Virus record (IMG/VR): IMGVR_UViG_3300023179_000537
Coordinates: 1-22,978 of that record
Length of the DNA: 22,978 bases
From: a virus
Strand: one strand, 5' to 3'
Made by a program: the position numbers and the translations under genes. Below, piece after piece: positions 2,781 to 20,816 of the stretch (the stretch's first letter is position 1; every line of letters starts with the position of its first letter). The notes under the pieces are model-generated. The model worked only from the letters and a program-made list of their open reading frames with translations, ran no database searches and was not told the origin of the DNA.

Positions 2781-2984
2781 ATGAAAAAAAGAACTTTACT
2801 TTCTGGTGAAGAAGTATTAGAATTAGAACAATCTAAAATTTTAACAGTCAAAACTAAATGCCCAGAAAAATGGAAACTTACTGATATGGAAACAGGCGAG
2901 GTCTATATTGGTTATTCCACCGAAGGGCAATTGAGTTGGAAAAGGATAAATAAATTGTCGAGGTCGTTGAGAGAAACGAAATAA
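2781..2984 (+). CDS. Small conserved-looking phage protein, unknown (67 aa)
   Basis: A basic 67-residue protein with a core CPEKWKLTDMETGEVYIGY that reads like one small beta domain; similar short proteins are familiar in T4-like phages but have no function I can name. It starts 5 bp after the oxygenase stop and is probably co-transcribed. Its stop codon TAA (2982-2984) touches the H2 strand of the tmRNA acceptor piece (2984-2990), so the tmRNA precursor begins at or inside the end of this gene. Confidence 0.65.
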   Translation: MKKRTLLSGEEVLELEQSKILTVKTKCPEKWKLTDMETGEVYIGYSTEGQLSWKRINKLSRSLRETK

Positions 2985-3023
2985 TCATACAGGACTCGGG
3001 GGCAGTACCCGACTGGTCCACCA

Positions 3024-3085
3024 TAAGAACATTTGCATAAAACCGTTCCGGGATACGGAAGCAGGCAAACCAAGTGTTCTTAATT
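3024..3085 (+). other. Intervening segment of the permuted tmRNA precursor
   Basis: These 62 bases lie between the acceptor 3' CCA and the coding-piece 5' end and would be removed from the mature RNA. They fold into an extended hairpin that continues the acceptor stem: TAAGAACA 3024-3031 pairs perfectly with TGTTCTTA 3075-3082, TTTGC 3032-3036 with GCAAA 3065-3069, and TTCCG 3046-3050 with CGGAA 3056-3060 around a 5-base loop. This continuous helix brings the two tmRNA ends together for RNase P-type and 3'-end processing. Confidence 0.85.
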
Positions 3086-3148
3086 GGGCCAGAAATAGGA
3101 TCGACTGGTGTGGTAAAGGTTTAAGGAGACCAAAGACAAACGTTAGAT

Positions 3149-3196
3149 GCCAACGATAACGATGCATCATTTGGAACATTTGCTCTAGCAGCATGA
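3149..3196 (+). other. tmRNA tag-peptide reading frame (15 aa)
   Basis: Resume codon GCC at 3149-3151 begins a frame encoding A-N-D-N-D-A-S-F-G-T-F-A-L-A-A followed by TGA. The AND start and ALAA end match known tmRNA degradation tags, including those of alphaproteobacteria. The -5 sequence TAGAT parallels the TAGTC before the E. coli resume codon. The tag would be recognised by ClpXP-type proteases through its ALAA end. Confidence 0.92.
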
Positions 3197-3267
3197 TCCA
3201 TTGGGGTGGCAACTTCCCTAGAAACAGAAAAGTTGCAACACACAAACACACACAAAGGAGTATTAAA

Positions 3268-3459
3268 ATGGATAAACAATCACCTTATGAACTTAGATAT
3301 AACTTTCTAATGTCTGCAAGAGAATATTTGGAAGCTAAATTTCATGCAGAACTTGAAATGTATGAAAGAAAGATATATTCTACGCCTCCATCTTATCCTA
3401 CAAATGAACAGATTTTCGAATTAGCCGAATCTTATAAACAATTTGTAGATAAGAAATAA
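3268..3459 (+). CDS. Small conserved-looking phage protein, unknown (63 aa)
   Basis: The start is taken at ATG 3268, preceded by AAGGAG at 3255-3260; an upstream in-frame ATG at 3193 lies inside the tmRNA and is not credible. The protein is short, acidic and probably helical: SPYELRYNFLMSAREYLEAK, a coiled middle, then PTNEQIFELAESYKQFV. Similar short proteins with the same beginning and a PT-x-E-x-I-x-x-x-A ending are familiar from T4-like phages, without assigned function. A strong terminator follows 14 bp after the stop. Confidence 0.7.
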   Translation: MDKQSPYELRYNFLMSAREYLEAKFHAELEMYERKIYSTPPSYPTNEQIFELAESYKQFVDKK

Positions 3460-3473
3460 ATATAAAAGGTTCT

Positions 3474-3504
3474 GCAAGTCTTCCCTAAAAAAGACTTGCT
3501 TTTT
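3474..3504 (+). terminator. Rho-independent terminator
   Basis: GCAAGTCTT 3474-3482 and AAGACTTGC 3491-3499 form a perfect 9-bp stem around an 8-base loop, followed by five T (3500-3504). It closes the transcript carrying the tmRNA and the 63-aa gene. Confidence 0.88.
3475..3492 (+). repeat. Left copy of an 18-bp direct repeat bracketing the nuclease/tRNA cassette
   Basis: Positions 3475-3492 match positions 4154-4171 at 16 of 18 bases; the shared core is GTCTTCCCTAAA. This copy is part of the terminator hairpin. Together the copies enclose the late promoter, endonuclease and tRNA. Confidence 0.6.
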
Positions 3505-3566: not shown

Positions 3567-4115
3567 ATGGCGTGGACAGCAGAATCTAGAAGAAAAGCAG
3601 CAGAAGCAAAGAAAAAATCGGGAAGAACTAACCAATACACAACTGGCGTAGCATCTCATGCTTCTGAAGAAACTAAAGAAAAAATTCGATTATCTTCTAT
3701 TGGAAGAACTCATAGCGAAAAAACAAAACATCTTATAAGTGAAAAAGCATTAGCCTCTGATCATAGAAGATTAAAAAAAGGCACTATTATGTATAAAGGT
3801 GTTTTGTTAGATAGTTCTTGGGAACTTGCAATGGCTGAAAGATTGGATGAATTAGGAATACAATGGATTAGACCAAAACCAGTAAAATGGGTAGACTCAG
3901 ATGGTAAAACGAGACATTATTTTCCAGACTTTTATTTGCCAGAACATAATTTATATTTAGATCCTAAAAACCCTCAAGCATATAAAGTTCAGAAATCTAA
4001 GATCGAATGCTTAAAAAAACAGTTGACTAACCTAATAATTATTAGTACAATATATGAAATAAAGAATTGGTCACTTGGCACAACAGGATTAGCGCAATCG
4101 CCTTCTAAGCGATAG
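3567..4115 (+). CDS. NUMOD3 plus PD-(D/E)XK endonuclease, probable homing endonuclease (182 aa)
   Basis: Residues about 32-61 carry a NUMOD3-like DNA-binding module (SEETKEKIRLSSIGRTHSEK). It is followed by a PD-(D/E)XK nuclease fold: SSWEL (E86), HYFPDFYLP (D121) and LYLDPK (D132-x-K134), with D in place of the usual E in the last motif. The N-terminal 20 residues are Lys/Arg/Ala-rich. NUMOD modules are typical of homing endonucleases, which cut recipient genomes and spread by repair. Its last 47 bp overlap the tRNA at 4069, so the final residues are encoded by tRNA sequence. A late promoter and strong SD (AAGGAG, 3554-3559) precede it. A free-standing Vsr-like or repair nuclease is an alternative. 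Confidence 0.75.
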   Translation: MAWTAESRRKAAEAKKKSGRTNQYTTGVASHASEETKEKIRLSSIGRTHSEKTKHLISEKALASDHRRLKKGTIMYKGVLLDSSWELAMAERLDELGIQWIRPKPVKWVDSDGKTRHYFPDFYLPEHNLYLDPKNPQAYKVQKSKIECLKKQLTNLIIISTIYEIKNWSLGTTGLAQSPSKR

Positions 4116-4146
4116 GTTGAAGGTTCGAGTCCTTCAGTGACCGCCA
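4069..4146 (+). tRNA. tRNA-Arg (anticodon UCU)
   Basis: Acceptor stem GGTCACT 4069-4075 pairs with AGTGACC 4136-4142; discriminator G 4143; encoded CCA 4144-4146. Anticodon stem ATCGC 4097-4101 pairs with GCGAT 4109-4113 around loop CTTCTAA, anticodon TCT 4104-4106. The T-arm GAAGG-TTCGAGT-CCTTC is perfect. The D-stem has one A-C mismatch. It reads AGA/AGG, the arginine codon most used by the baseplate genes here. Confidence 0.95.
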
Positions 4147-4711: not shown

Positions 4712-4897
4712 ATGGACACTCTCAAAGAGAATTATTCATATTCACACGCCAGCACTATAATCTGGTCTCTTCAACAAGAATTGAATAGACATAAGGCTCG
4801 AAGATTTAACGATAACCATATAGAAAAATACCTTACTTGTCGGATTGCCGAACTGAAGGAACATGAAAAACAATGCTTAAGAATTCAGGCTTCGTAG
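4712..4897 (+). CDS. Hypothetical protein upstream of gp33 (61 aa)
   Basis: The ORF begins 4 bp after the transpeptidase stop, with AAGGA at 4698-4702 as a plausible ribosome binding site, and overlaps the gp33 start by 25 bp. The product is polar and probably all-helical (SHASTIIWSLQQELNRHK, then HIEKYLTCRIAELKEHEKQ). In T4 the gene before 33 is dsbA, but I see no resemblance to DsbA. Coding potential is likely from spacing and composition; function unknown. Confidence 0.55.
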   Translation: MDTLKENYSYSHASTIIWSLQQELNRHKARRFNDNHIEKYLTCRIAELKEHEKQCLRIQAS

Positions 4898-5091
4898 AAG
4901 AAGTAGAAAAGCTCTGTCGAGAAAAGAACATCGAATATATCGACGCAGTCGTTTTCTGGTGTGAGAAGAATAACCTTGAGATAGAACAGGCTGCATATTG
5001 GATAAAAAAAGACCCTGCTATGAGGGCTAAAATACAGGCAGAAGCCGAAAACCTGAATATTCTTAAACGGGGTGCACGCCTACCGATATAA
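4873..5091 (+). CDS. 33: gp33-like late transcription coactivator (72 aa)
   Basis: The middle of the protein (VEKLCREKNIEYIDAVVFWC, then EKNNLEIEQAAYWIKKDP and KIQAEAENLNIL) aligns by eye with the core of T4 gp33, where the equivalent segments read as a helix, an acidic turn and IQSEAIDENLL. gp33 bridges host RNA polymerase to the gp45 sliding clamp and, with gp55, activates late promoters. T4 gp33 is 112 residues and ends with a hydrophobic clamp-binding tail (LDFLL). This one is shorter at both ends and stops at ARLPI with no such tail. Position supports the call: gp59 and gene 32 follow, as in T4, with one inserted gene. A late promoter box overlaps its stop codon. Confidence 0.78.
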   Translation: MLKNSGFVEEVEKLCREKNIEYIDAVVFWCEKNNLEIEQAAYWIKKDPAMRAKIQAEAENLNILKRGARLPI

Positions 5092-5121: not shown

Positions 5122-5631
5122 ATGCACATTAAAACAATTGGTAAACCTTCTCATATATCTGTTTCTATGGTGAAAAAAGCAGCAAATTTTTATGGAAAAT
5201 ATCTAATTGGTGGTGGTAAACTTTTTAACAATATAAAGTTGACTGTCCAATTTGAAAAAATGGAGTCAAACGAGGGCGATTACGCCTATTGCGACTGGAC
5301 AGACGATAATCATTATAGAAGAGAATTTCTTATCGGTATCGACCGATCTATTAATAAAAAAGAGACTCTATTAGCGTTGGCCCATGAGATGGTCCACGTA
5401 AAACAATACGCTAAGGGAGAAATGAAAGATATCTGGAAGCCAACCAGAATGGTAAAATGGCAAGGAGAGAGATATCTTCACGAAGAAATGGATTATTGGG
5501 AACAGCCTTGGGAGATCGAGGCATATGGCCGAGAAAAAGGTCTTTACTTTAAATTTTTAACTTATTTAAGAGATGGTGAGCCAGAGTTAAAATGTCAGCC
5601 TTCGAAGCGTATAAAGATTATGTCGCTCTAA
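5122..5631 (+). CDS. Zinc metalloprotease-like protein with HExxH motif (169 aa)
   Basis: The start at ATG 5122 follows GGAGG at 5112-5116. The key motif is LLALAHEMVHVKQYAKGEM: H88-E89-x-x-H92, the zinc-binding helix of gluzincin/SprT-like peptidases. A conserved WEQPWEIEAYGRE segment (E131 or E133) about 40 residues later could give the third ligand. No signal peptide is visible, so it should act in the cytoplasm or virion. The T4 33-59 junction has no such gene, so it is an insertion between 33 and 59. Its last 40 bp overlap gp59 in another frame. Substrate unknown; prohead protease is not implied. Confidence 0.7.
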   Translation: MHIKTIGKPSHISVSMVKKAANFYGKYLIGGGKLFNNIKLTVQFEKMESNEGDYAYCDWTDDNHYRREFLIGIDRSINKKETLLALAHEMVHVKQYAKGEMKDIWKPTRMVKWQGERYLHEEMDYWEQPWEIEAYGREKGLYFKFLTYLRDGEPELKCQPSKRIKIMSL

Positions 5632-6158
5632 AAAATCACTTCACCAAACCAACATATGATTATATAAAATATAACGGGAAGACTGGTCTAAAACATTCTT
5701 CCTTTCAGAATAGAAAAGATAAAATCTTTTTCGAGAAACTTGCTAAAAGACCTGATTATCATGAATTTCTTATCGCCAATCTTTCTGAAAATCCAAAACT
5801 TTGGATAAGAGATATAGCATATTCCGAAGAAGCAGATAGAATTTTCAGCGCCTGGAAAAAACGCCAACAGTCTTTGACTTATAATTTTAAAAGAGAATTT
5901 TGGAAAATATTTGATGAGCCGAAATTAGAGGGTCAACATCCAGCTGCTCTCAGATTATATTTGGCGGGAGAAATAAGTCTAGAGACTCTTTGTATTTTTG
6001 TTAACAGTCATGGTATATTACAGAACTGGGACTCCAAATTAGAATACGACCCAATTTGGGATGAAGTTCGAATGAAAGTGGTAAAATATACGCCTTTTAT
6101 AAAATACGATAAAGACAAAATGATGCAGATAATGCTTGATATTGTCCACAATGATTAG
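5592..6158 (+). CDS. 59: gp59 helicase loader (188 aa)
   Basis: The protein resembles T4 gp59. It has an N-terminal segment with a tyrosine-rich DYIKYNGKTGLKHSSFQNRK box equivalent to gp59's DVIKYNW...KRRDK, then KIFFEKLAKR, a LIANLSENPKLWIRDIA block (gp59: FISNLVANQDAWIGDIS), and an all-helical C-terminal half. Its length (188) is close to T4 gp59 (217). gp59 loads the gp41 replicative helicase onto forks and recombination intermediates coated with gp32. The ATG lies inside the previous gene's 3' end (40-bp overlap), suggesting coupled translation. Gene order 33-59-32 as in T4 strengthens the call. Confidence 0.88.
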   Translation: MSAFEAYKDYVALKNHFTKPTYDYIKYNGKTGLKHSSFQNRKDKIFFEKLAKRPDYHEFLIANLSENPKLWIRDIAYSEEADRIFSAWKKRQQSLTYNFKREFWKIFDEPKLEGQHPAALRLYLAGEISLETLCIFVNSHGILQNWDSKLEYDPIWDEVRMKVVKYTPFIKYDKDKMMQIMLDIVHND

Positions 6159-6459: not shown

Positions 6460-6954
6460 ATGGTCTATAAAATCCGAAAATTGAAAGAGCACTCCGATAT
6501 AAAACAAAAGGTTTTAGGTTTAATTGCAGATAGTCCAGGTGCAAAAACTGGTGAAATTACCAGAACAGATTGGTACACCGGAAAAGGTAAAACAAAAGAA
6601 TATTTTAAATTTTTATTACCAATTTTATCACCATATATTGAAAAAATTATCGGGGATCTTGGGCACAGAGAGGGTTATATTGAAACGTATTGGTTTCAAC
6701 AATATGAAACTAATAGCGAACATCCATGGCACACTCATCCTATTTGTGCATGGTCTAATGTTTATTATCTTGAATTCCCGAAAGATGGACCAAAATTAGA
6801 AATAAAAATGCCATTCAGCAATGAAATTATAATTCCTGATGTTGAGGAAGGCGATTTAATAACTTTTCCATCAAATTTCTATCACAGAAGTCCTGTTAAT
6901 AAATCTTCTAACAGAAAAACTATCGTGGCTTTTGATATGGCAAATTTAAAATAG
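6460..6954 (+). CDS. Putative 2OG-Fe(II) oxygenase/cupin-type protein (164 aa)
   Basis: A third oxygenase-like protein, shorter than the other two. The metal pair is in EHPWHTHPICAWSNVYYL (H91 and H93, HxH). The second part has GDLITFPSNFYHRSPVN (distal H142) and an arginine ten residues later (R152, in NRKTIVAFD) suited to bind 2-oxoglutarate. The first 80 residues are helical with little recognisable sequence. Substrate unknown. It lies between the long hairpin and the gene 32 promoter, so it may be a single-gene unit. It is AGA-rich in arginine codons and very AT-rich, unlike gene 32 next to it. Confidence 0.7.
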   Translation: MVYKIRKLKEHSDIKQKVLGLIADSPGAKTGEITRTDWYTGKGKTKEYFKFLLPILSPYIEKIIGDLGHREGYIETYWFQQYETNSEHPWHTHPICAWSNVYYLEFPKDGPKLEIKMPFSNEIIIPDVEEGDLITFPSNFYHRSPVNKSSNRKTIVAFDMANLK

Positions 6955-11671: not shown

Positions 11672-12235
11672 CTAATATGGCGGCGAACCAGAGTAACGCC
11701 TATTTGGGTTGATGGACCATCTCTGTAAAGGTAATAATGCAGCTTTTTCCCAATCTCGAGGATCAACTTGATAAAACGAACTTCTCACGTGATTAAAAAG
11801 ATATCGTTTTATACAGTTTTCAACTCCTCTTAGTTGATTTGAATAGTGTTTTAACAGACTATAAGTTAATACTAATTTTTTATTTTGAACATATTTATCG
11901 TTATCGTTGATATTAACCAACCCATTCATCAAACCAATTCTAGCCAGTGGCGGAAGATAATGTAAATTTACCCCTAAAATACCATCATTATAAATTTCTA
12001 CTGGGAATACCAGAGGGTGGGCGTCGTAATAAGGTAATACTTTTTTTAGTTTTGGATCATATAAAAACAAAAACAATCCACCAATTTGTGGGCTAGTGCT
12101 TTTGGTAAATATTTTATTGGGATCTCTTTTTCCCATATCAGAAACGGTTTCTTTATACCATTGAGAAGATTCGCTAGATTTAGAAGCCAAATCTATAGCA
12201 GTAGCTCTTAATAATTTGGTAAATCTGTTTGACAT
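11672..12235 (-). CDS. Unrecognised protein between gp4 and the tube-fold protein (187 aa)
   Basis: The start overlaps the gp4 stop by one base and the stop lies 8 bp before the next start, so it belongs to the leftward operon. The protein is basic, with a helical N-terminus and a distinctive central block: GGLFLFLYDPKLKKVLPYYD, then HPLVFPVEIYNDGILGVNLHYLPPLARIG. After it come helices (KKLVLTYSLLKHYS) and a DPRDWEKAALLPLQRW segment. I associate such proteins with T4-like phage structural modules but cannot name the function. No signal peptide or membrane span. Confidence 0.7.
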   Translation of the reverse strand: MSNRFTKLLRATAIDLASKSSESSQWYKETVSDMGKRDPNKIFTKSTSPQIGGLFLFLYDPKLKKVLPYYDAHPLVFPVEIYNDGILGVNLHYLPPLARIGLMNGLVNINDNDKYVQNKKLVLTYSLLKHYSNQLRGVENCIKRYLFNHVRSSFYQVDPRDWEKAALLPLQRWSINPNRRYSGSPPY

Positions 12236-12681
12236 TAAAATTTTATTCCTAGTTCTTTTTCGGTCATGATAACAAACTCATATCCCCTGTCTTTACAGTA
12301 TTCACGAGCAGCTTTCCATTTGGCCGAGTTCACACCCCATCTCATAACTTCTTGTATGTAACGTTTTGACTTTTTACCCTCCATTAACAGTGGAGGTTTG
12401 CATTGAGATGCTGGTTTCACTTCAATTAATTTAGTTTTGGTTTTACCTTCGGTGTCTTTTATCCGAACTGTAAAATCAACATAATAACGATGGATTCTAT
12501 TATCTATTGGCGAGCGATAAGGAACGATAGTTTCTTCACTTTGCCACCAAATTACATTAGGGTCTTTATCCAGCCTTGACATTAGCACAGATTCCCATCT
12601 AGATCTATAAATTATATTACTTGGGTCTCCTTTGTATTTATCAGGGTTTCTTGGAATAAAATAACCTTTGTGTGCAGCCAT
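12235..12681 (-). CDS. 4: gp4-like head completion nuclease (148 aa)
   Basis: The sequence follows T4 gp4 (head completion protein, about 150 aa) along its length: KGYFIPRNPDKYKGDPSNII, YRSRWE, then WWQSEETIVPYRSP, NRIHRYYVDF and KTKLIEVKP. E30, D69 and E87-x-K89 form a PD-(D/E)XK (TnsA-like) nuclease site. gp4 acts after DNA packaging, with gp50, to ready the full head for tail joining. It is the first gene of the leftward operon, 51 bp from the divergent gp48-like gene. A late-promoter-like box lies 32 bp upstream. Confidence 0.9.
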   Translation of the reverse strand: MAAHKGYFIPRNPDKYKGDPSNIIYRSRWESVLMSRLDKDPNVIWWQSEETIVPYRSPIDNRIHRYYVDFTVRIKDTEGKTKTKLIEVKPASQCKPPLLMEGKKSKRYIQEVMRWGVNSAKWKAAREYCKDRGYEFVIMTEKELGIKF

Positions 12682-18953: not shown

Positions 18954-20816
18954 ATGGCAGCAAACAGCTCACTAAATCTTAGCTCTCTCGATTTTGATAC
19001 GCTAAAAGAAAACCTTAAAACCTTTTTAAAGTCTCAATCAGTATTGAAAGACTATAATTTTGAAGGTTCTAATATGAACGTTCTGTTGGACGTTCTTTCG
19101 TATAATTCATATCTCAATTCTTTCTATTTGAATATGGTTGCTTCGGAAATGTTTCTGGATTCAGCCCAGAAATTAGATTCTGTCATTTCACACTCTAAAG
19201 AATTAAATTATGTTCCAATGTCATATTCAGGAGCTGTTTCTAATGTAAATATTACGTTTGAAACGTCAGGCATTTCTACAACTACTGGTGTCATTTCTGT
19301 TCCAAAGGGAACTAGATTTTTTGGAACAAATTCTAATGGAACTTATCAATTCGTAACAACTGATACACAATCATATGCATCAACTAATGATACCTTTTTT
19401 GTATCTAATTTGCAGATCAGAGAAGGTTCATATAATAATGAATCATTCTTAGTTAATTATGATATTGAAAATCAGAGATTTATCCTTTCTGACCCAAAAA
19501 TTGACACTGACACTCTAAATGTTTTTGTTGTTGAAAATTTTGGTTCTTCGAATACGTTGTTCACAAGAAAAACAACATTGTTTGGATTAGATTCCACTTC
19601 TAATGTATATTTCTTACAAGCCACTCAGAATGGTCAGTATGAAATTATATTCGGAGATAATAATTTCGGAAGAAAACCTTTAAATGCTTCTACTGTTTTG
19701 GTAGATTACGTAGTTACTGGTGGTTCTGATGGAAATGGTATTTCTGAGTTGAGTATTTCAGATGATATTGGTCCGATTAATGGCGGTTCAATTGTTTCCG
19801 CATCGGTTTCTGTAACAGCAAATTCTGCAGGCGGCGCCAATCAGGAAGGAATTGATTCTATCCGTTTCAATGCCCCACGTTATTTTGCTACTCAGCAGCG
19901 TGCTGTTTCTTCTGACGATTACGCTTCTTTGGTTAGAGCAAACTTTCAAGGCGAAATTTCAGACGTGGCTGTATTTGGCGGCGAAACTCTACCAGAGAAA
20001 AAATACGGCAGAGTCATTGTTTGTTTAAAACCTGCTGCTGGAGTAATAGCGCCTAATTATGTAAAAGATAGTATTGTTAGATATTTACAAGATTATATTG
20101 CTCTACCAAATAGAGTTGAAACGGCTGATCCTGATTATCTTTATGTTTATTTGTCATCAACTATTCAATACGACCCTTATGCTACCAACAAAACTGTTTC
20201 GGAAATTAAAAATATTGTTTCTTCTTCAATTAATAATTATAATGTCCAGCATCTTGGGTTGTTTGGTGCAGATTTGAGATATAGTCGTTTAGTTGCTCAT
20301 ATTGACGATAGTGATTCTAGTGTTGTCAGTAACAAAACGGATTTCCGTATCATTAAAAGAATGTCCCCTCTTATCAATAGAACTTACACACAAACATTAT
20401 ATTTTAATAATGCAATATATCTAGAAAATCAACCAGTGTATTCGCAAAGCCATATAGCGTTCCATGGTTCAAACTACAACACTCATTTTACTCACGCTTC
20501 TGTAATTTCTTCTGTATTCACGTACAATCATAGTGATGGTATTTCTTATCCGTTTAGTTATTTCGAAGATGATTCTCATGGGAATATCGATGTTTATTCT
20601 TTGGTGGGAAATCAAGTAACAAAATTGGATACAATTGGAACTGTTGAATATATAGAAGGAATTGTTAAATTGAATAACATCAGTATAGCTGATTATTCTG
20701 ATCATATTTCAATATATGCAAAAACTGCTGATAGAGATATTTTTGCTGGACCTAAAAATATTATTTTGATTGATCCAAATGATGTTACTGTTACAGTACA
20801 AGAGAAAAGAAACTAA
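18954..20816 (+). CDS. 6: gp6 baseplate wedge subunit (620 aa)
   Basis: The N-terminus (SSLDFDTLKENLKTFLKSQS, then FEGSNMNVLLDVLSYNSYLN and FLDSAQKLDSVISHSKELNY) is the hallmark of T4 gp6 and its J-like relatives. Central beta domains and a RFNAPRYFATQQRAVSSDDY block follow, also typical. T4 gp6 is 660 residues. gp6 dimers form the inner ring of the baseplate and change shape on contraction. It starts immediately after gp25 (no gap) and its stop overlaps the next start as TAATG. Confidence 0.93.
   Translation: MAANSSLNLSSLDFDTLKENLKTFLKSQSVLKDYNFEGSNMNVLLDVLSYNSYLNSFYLNMVASEMFLDSAQKLDSVISHSKELNYVPMSYSGAVSNVNITFETSGISTTTGVISVPKGTRFFGTNSNGTYQFVTTDTQSYASTNDTFFVSNLQIREGSYNNESFLVNYDIENQRFILSDPKIDTDTLNVFVVENFGSSNTLFTRKTTLFGLDSTSNVYFLQATQNGQYEIIFGDNNFGRKPLNASTVLVDYVVTGGSDGNGISELSISDDIGPINGGSIVSASVSVTANSAGGANQEGIDSIRFNAPRYFATQQRAVSSDDYASLVRANFQGEISDVAVFGGETLPEKKYGRVIVCLKPAAGVIAPNYVKDSIVRYLQDYIALPNRVETADPDYLYVYLSSTIQYDPYATNKTVSEIKNIVSSSINNYNVQHLGLFGADLRYSRLVAHIDDSDSSVVSNKTDFRIIKRMSPLINRTYTQTLYFNNAIYLENQPVYSQSHIAFHGSNYNTHFTHASVISSVFTYNHSDGISYPFSYFEDDSHGNIDVYSLVGNQVTKLDTIGTVEYIEGIVKLNNISIADYSDHISIYAKTADRDIFAGPKNIILIDPNDVTVTVQEKRN

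Follow-up and report, generated by a model that had tools for sequence, protein, structure and literature searches.

A circularly permuted, two-piece tmRNA gene of a T4-like phage lineage, placed upstream of gp32 behind a putative late promoter

Circularly permuted tmRNAs were published for T4-like marine phages in 2022, with that of phage Melnitz and 53 two-piece tmRNAs from public phage genomes (PMC9004378). A 2025 tmRNA database holds 79 unique bacteriophage sequences, and more than 120 stretches of IMG/VR carry the acceptor pattern used here. The gene analyzed below, carried by an IMG/VR record of 22,978 bases taken at its full length (hereafter, the window), is therefore a further case of a known type. 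As far as open-licence papers show, new additions are the link to a late promoter, the location tied to gp32 and the endonuclease genes found in the spacers of relatives.

Alpha-type permuted tmRNAs like that of the window are present in the T4-like phages Melnitz (Methylophilales) and Mosig and HTVC008M (Pelagibacter), and RF04321 matches are found in their genomes. In Melnitz, whose gp6 is about 32% identical to that of the window, the tmRNA immediately precedes the transcription coactivator gene (PMC9004378). It is preceded, 76 nt before the CCA end, by a TATAAATA string resembling the late motif of the other phage copies. The two genes differ in their tags, ANDNYVPVDYALAA in Melnitz and ANDNDASFGTFALAA in the window. 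They also differ in their control signals, since a glutamine riboswitch and an early promoter were reported for Melnitz by its authors (PMC9004378), whereas the window has the late motif only. A cmscan search of the window gives no match to an Rfam riboswitch.

In bacteria, the alphaproteobacterial permuted tmRNA (RF01849, for example Caulobacter ssrA) shares with the window the gene order, the two-piece logic, the T-arm, the G·U pair, an ANDN...LAA tag and the terminal pseudoknot. In contrast, the spacer is longer and variable in phages (62 nt in the window, 16-520 nt in other phages) compared with 10-48 nt in bacterial copies, and the window departs from the alphaproteobacterial model by a shortened mid-region and an added phage-type promoter motif. 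The T4-like Stenotrophomonas phage DLP6 (L318), the source of the gp6 that best matches that of the window, also has a permuted tmRNA (102838-103059, 136.8 bits). It differs by its gammaproteobacterial host and by its tag, ANDDSFAPMAIAA, with a tRNA cluster after it; ATAAATA is absent from the 100 nt before its CCA end. The ssrA gene of such a host is itself expected to have the standard one-piece form. Finally, mycobacteriophage DS6A produces a tag-less tmRNA-like RNA, suggested to block host trans-translation (PMC4131195). Like the RNA of the window, it is a phage-borne tmRNA relative, but it contains little beyond the tRNA-like domain (PMC4131195), whereas in the window both the tag and the coding piece are complete.

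A circularly permuted, two-piece tmRNA gene occupies positions 2957-3240 (+) of the window. With cmscan, two Rfam models match at about twice their gathering cut-offs, RF04321 at 2962-3196 (94.9 bits, gathering 47, E = 1.5e-17) and RF01849, alpha_tmRNA, at 2927-3239 (94.7 bits, gathering 50, E = 5.8e-25). ARAGORN calls a permuted tmRNA with the tag ANDNDASFGTFALAA, plus tRNA-Arg(TCT) downstream. A preliminary description of this DNA had claimed a phage-borne permuted two-piece tmRNA with a complete tag and had proposed the alpha_tmRNA search as a check; the two models and ARAGORN bear the claim out. The folding energy of the precursor (2957-3240) corresponds to z = -3.8. Chance as the source of the signal is excluded by the cmscan matches, the folding z and the compensatory changes described below. 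Six relatives give no match over the cut-off to the standard one-piece tmRNA (RF00023). Since blastn with the tmRNA and tblastn with the tag gave no match in a collection of isolate phages, a covariance search of records was used.

The anatomy of the gene and its neighborhood are given in Table 1. The acceptor piece with its encoded ACCA is found 5' of the coding half, with a spacer between them, the intervening transcript segment (ITS), whose ends pair in the window fold (3024-3031 with 3075-3082). All seven pairs of the acceptor stem form, the third being G·U. The limits of stem and spacer are exactly those first claimed, and H2, T-arm, tag frame and downstream pseudoknot all form; the G·U wobble for alanine charging is retained, as had also been noticed. 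Only the start of the gene, set at 2984, has to be corrected to about 2957-2962, since the acceptor piece has two helix strands 5' of 2984.

Table 1. Features of the permuted tmRNA gene and of its neighborhood, in window coordinates
Feature	Position	Strand	Evidence or remark
T4-type late-promoter-like motif GATAAATA, just 5' of acceptor piece	2945-2952	+	position conserved in relatives
Acceptor piece (3' half of tRNA-like domain)	2957-3023, 5' end approximate	+	cmscan, alignment A1
Inter-piece helix strand, partner 3128-3131	2962-2965	+	96% of cells paired; 2 pairs changed on both sides
Inter-piece helix strand, partner 3119-3122	2974-2977	+	98% of cells paired; compensatory changes in 4/4 pairs
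H2 strand, partner 3105-3110	2986-2992	+	compensatory changes in 5/6 pairs
T-arm, stem 2996-3000/3008-3012	2996-3012	+	100% paired; compensatory changes in 4/5 pairs
Acceptor stem 3' strand (3013-3019) and encoded ACCA (3020-3023)	3013-3023	+	
ITS, expected to be removed	3024-3085 (62 nt)	+	
Coding piece: acceptor stem 5' strand (3086-3092), D region, tag frame, terminal pseudoknot	3086-3236	+	
Tag frame ANDNDASFGTFALAA (3149-3193) and stop TGA (3194-3196)	3149-3196	+	ARAGORN
Terminal pseudoknot, 3201-3206/3216-3221 and 3209-3215/3230-3236	3201-3236	+	strand-swap control
63-aa ORF in cassette 3' of coding piece	3268-3459	+	common to L220 and, diverged, L214
Displaced, decayed copy of ancestral terminal pseudoknot	~3469-3504	+	GGTTCTGCAAGTCTT identical to L215/L223 pseudoknot
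Endonuclease-like ORF between tmRNA and tRNA-Arg, overlapping tRNA	3567-4115	+	PHROG endonuclease / Holliday-junction resolvase matches
tRNA-Arg (TCT)	4069-4146	+	usual tmRNA neighbor in close relatives
gp33-like late-transcription coactivator	4873-5091	+	PF16805, E = 3.3e-17
gp59	5592-6158		PF08993
gp32 single-stranded-DNA-binding protein, anchor gene downstream of phage tmRNAs	7050-7940	+	PF08804, E = 2e-43; phrog_224

Judging from comparison with relatives, the structure of the window tmRNA is under selection. In alignment A1, composed of the window and 12 relatives, 71 cells of the named structure are changed on both sides against 23 in shuffles, and none of 500 shuffles reaches 71. Every slid register is far worse than the true one. 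Helices 1, 2, 3 and 5 have 88-100% of their cells paired, with compensatory changes; for instance, the inter-piece helix 2974-2977/3119-3122 reads AAAC/GUUU in the window and GAAC/GUUC in L214. The spacer helix has 36% of its cells paired, which looks like alignment slip (AAGAACA/TGTTCTT in the window vs. AGATACA/TGTATCT in L208 and others). A second pseudoknot helix of at least six pairs, counting Watson-Crick pairs only and no G·U, is found in 77% of 113 phage tmRNAs vs. 7% when the 3' strands are swapped between loci, and 56 distinct helices occur among the phage tmRNAs. As for the third acceptor pair, it is G·U in 139/139 phage permuted tmRNA hits of a pattern search permitting any standard pair. 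A match in L066 with a 1948-nt spacer was judged spurious and is left out of the 139.

The tag of the window is intact, its frame having a resume codon and its degron an AA end; it is identical in L207 and near-identical in L208, L216 and L220. Among 95 tags parsed from phage permuted tmRNAs, 91 end in AA and 78 in LAA; hence, the degron is kept. The degenerate tag pattern ANDNDASF retrieved 18 stretches from 84,980 genomes, none with a tmRNA call, and the tag therefore does not name the host. Beta-type tags of T4-like phage tmRNAs (ANDSEYRLAA, ANDSQFALAA, ANDSKFALAA and ANDEQFALAA in L250, L253, L265 and L268) suggest that tag type may track host lineage. Unusually long tags of about 29-31 residues, such as ANDNALSNVTFVDFSAPVTAVNEDFALAA, are carried by L117, L121, L106, L094, L092 and L108. 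Tagless “decoy” tmRNAs, considered at loci devoid of an ARAGORN call, were rejected; nearly all show normal tags when read directly.

SmpB was searched for in 15 related phage records, several of more than 130 kb, and none has it, whereas ten control bacteria match; host SmpB is therefore needed. The same lack of SmpB in related phages would suit a decoy, as proposed for DS6A (PMC4131195), in which host trans-translation is blocked through competition of the phage copy with the host tmRNA or through titration of SmpB. Yet a tag is superfluous for a pure decoy, and practically all phage copies keep a full AA-ending one, with tag frame and pseudoknot both maintained. We consider such a role very unlikely.

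The nearest sequences to the window tmRNA all belong to phages, L207 being 97% and L235-L237 87% identical. The best bacterial tmRNA is 67% identical, in a non-exhaustive sample restricted to Alphaproteobacteria, within which Pelagibacterales and freshwater hosts are not separable. In a tree built from 143 phage copies and 49 bacterial ones, 4 label changes are counted vs. 44 with shuffled labels. Permuted tmRNA is near-universal in Alphaproteobacteria, being present in 270 of the 289 genomes sampled, so that donors would be plentiful for another scenario, a recently captured host ssrA gene that is passively carried or decaying. However, the proximity of the phage copies, the distance to the best sampled bacterium, the phage/bacteria split of the tree, a locus fixed in relatives and the conservation of structure, G·U pair and tag leave this scenario hardly credible and already largely refuted. 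Thus, of the capture from a host lineage with permuted tmRNA put forward in the preliminary description, the recent event is not supported, in view of the phage nearest relatives, the tree split and the shared locus, whereas an older origin from a host with a permuted tmRNA is likely. Several ancient origins of phage permuted tmRNAs are possible because some phage tags look beta-like (L253, L268). The correlation of tmRNA distance with gp32 distance is weak (Mantel r = 0.19, a value reached in 16 of 2000 permutations), and copies have therefore been exchanged or replaced; the locus is stable and the alleles move.

The conservation of this locus was evaluated with 33 loci, that is, relatives retrieved through their gp32 and having 5 kb or more of upstream sequence. 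By pattern, a permuted tmRNA is encoded on the gp32 strand, 1.2-5.5 kb upstream of that gene, in 27 of them, window included. ARAGORN adds L221, L239 and L262, which brings the count to 30/33. The tmRNA was not found in the related loci L213, L240 and L246 and is therefore not required by every member. A gp33-like gene occurs in four relatives, about 0.9-1.0 kb downstream of the tmRNA in G001 and G006. By similarity, the gene neighbors of the window tmRNA are T4-like, and gp6 (18954-20816) is closest to those of DLP6, phiM12, HTVC008M, Cr30 and Melnitz (32-36% identity). Three genes of the 2OG-Fe(II) oxygenase family (PF13759, PF13640) are grouped within 6 kb around the tmRNA, at 1368-1973, 2179-2775 and 6460-6954. 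A TnsA-like endonuclease N-terminal domain (PF08722) is encoded at 12235-12681 (-), among structural genes; presumably, this gene may correspond to the T4-like head-completion protein gp4.

The T4 late consensus is TATAAATA and its cyanophage form is NATAAATA (PMC2984593). The columns of the motif GATAAATA are nearly invariant in A1. ATAAATA is present upstream at a fixed place in 85/138 phage permuted tmRNAs, a fraction describing loci gathered by sequence pattern and gp32/gp6 similarity, near-copies included, and not all phages, vs. 0/49 bacterial copies, of which 9 come from AT-rich genomes. In most phage copies, 72-81 nt separate its start from the CCA end, and it is found in 1.5% of random 52-nt stretches from the same loci. 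In 71 of the 85 copies, a T directly precedes it, giving TATAAATA. Within the AT-rich window alone, NATAAATA is not enriched (10 on the + strand vs. about 9 expected), and its role therefore rests on comparison. From this comparison, the window tmRNA appears to be under the phage's own late switch, with a putative late promoter, and the phage control of ribosome rescue suggested earlier gains indirect support.

A box with at least 5/6 matches to TTGACA is located 16-18 nt upstream of the motif in 44/85 copies, against 1-2/85 at control spacings, and the motif combined with a TTGAC box at that distance occurs in 53/138 phage copies. Melnitz shows both, and its authors suggested that the RNA is expressed early and tags host proteins (PMC9004378). 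On such grounds, expression could be early or by read-through, the NATAAATA box being coincidental or a sigma-70 -10 element and the function host-like rather than late. We find this unlikely. Indeed, a -35 element is absent at the window motif and at most of the closest relatives, which nevertheless keep the late box; the conserved string is TATAAATA, not TATAAT; and overlapping early and late promoters have been described for RB49 and proposed for cyanophages. The TTGACA-type box and the late motif would then form an overlapping early-late (sigma-70/late) promoter in many phages. Upstream of the Melnitz tmRNA (L319, MZ577097, 46013-46345), the arrangement TTGACA-N17-TATAAATA has the form of such an overlapping promoter, of which the publication names the early one only. 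A search with the PF02916 sliding-clamp profile gave no match even in the controls and therefore says nothing about the clamp.

On the 3' side, the coding piece is followed by a cassette and a second pseudoknot copy (window 3237-3504; L214:1950-2400; L220:1545-1980). In L214, a small ORF separates the tmRNA pseudoknot from a second copy that is complete. The copy is decayed in L220 and in the window (3469-3499), where a terminator scan shows it to be now a 9-bp hairpin with a T-run, intrinsic-terminator-like. Since a second pseudoknot copy remains downstream of the cassette ORF, insertion of the cassette probably rebuilt the 3' end of the coding piece.

In relatives of the window, the spacer itself can carry a gene. 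L216 and the matching records L385-L389 (L386 being the same contig as L216) have a 520-nt tmRNA spacer with a 154-aa HNH ORF (PF01844, E 3.7e-4, just under the curated cut-off), which carries its own TATAAATA and AGGAGG. The same arrangement is found in L392 (ORF 66% identical) and L393 (43%), in different tmRNA lineages and with fully paired acceptor stems, whereas in L391 the homologous ORF is just upstream of the tmRNA, not in the spacer. Spacer HNH genes thus occur in three phage lineages, in relatives only and not in the window (L216:5988-6509, L392:1444-1957, L393:1175-1679). The tmRNA halves and tags are intact, and the tmRNAs of L388, L392 and L393 are still over the cmscan cut-off despite the ORF. 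No published account of an HNH ORF inside a tmRNA spacer was found in open-licence papers.

We favor, with a probability of roughly 0.82, a functional alpha-type two-piece tmRNA gene of a T4-like phage lineage, made late, processed by the host and rescuing ribosomes. Beyond what is observed, namely the gene, its structure under selection, the intact tag, the conserved locus and the position of the motif, we infer late transcription, processing, charging, tagging and a benefit to the phage. At the late stage, RNA polymerase modified by the phage (gp55-type) would start at the NATAAATA motif, which would place the first nucleotide of the transcript on, or very close to, the 5' end of the acceptor piece. 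Host RNase P would cut at 3085/3086 and tRNA 3'-end maturation enzymes would act at the CCA, with removal of the 62-nt spacer, while the two pieces would stay joined by the acceptor stem, H2 and two further helices. The tmRNA would be charged by host alanyl-tRNA synthetase via the G·U pair, enter with host SmpB into ribosomes stalled on broken mRNAs, add ANDNDASFGTFALAA and release the ribosomes; the ...ALAA end would direct the tagged product to host ClpXP. The part given here to host SmpB, alanyl-tRNA synthetase and ClpXP follows established tmRNA biology. For the phage, the benefit would be ribosome recovery in late protein synthesis, during mRNA degradation.

More broadly, we lean toward the idea that permuted tmRNA is a long-standing resident of T4-like phages beside gp33/gp59/gp32, under a late (or overlapping early-late) promoter that would let the phage set its own late-stage rescue and degradation tag. 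In at least three phage lineages, HNH endonucleases of the homing type would use the excised, intron-like spacer as a safe home. As a host for endonuclease genes, the spacer would offer a niche for mobile genes without a self-splicing intron. Permuted tmRNA is widespread among phages, with an intact structure and an apparent tie to the phage transcription programme; it is not a stray host gene, and a takeover of ribosome rescue by the phage in late infection is now testable.
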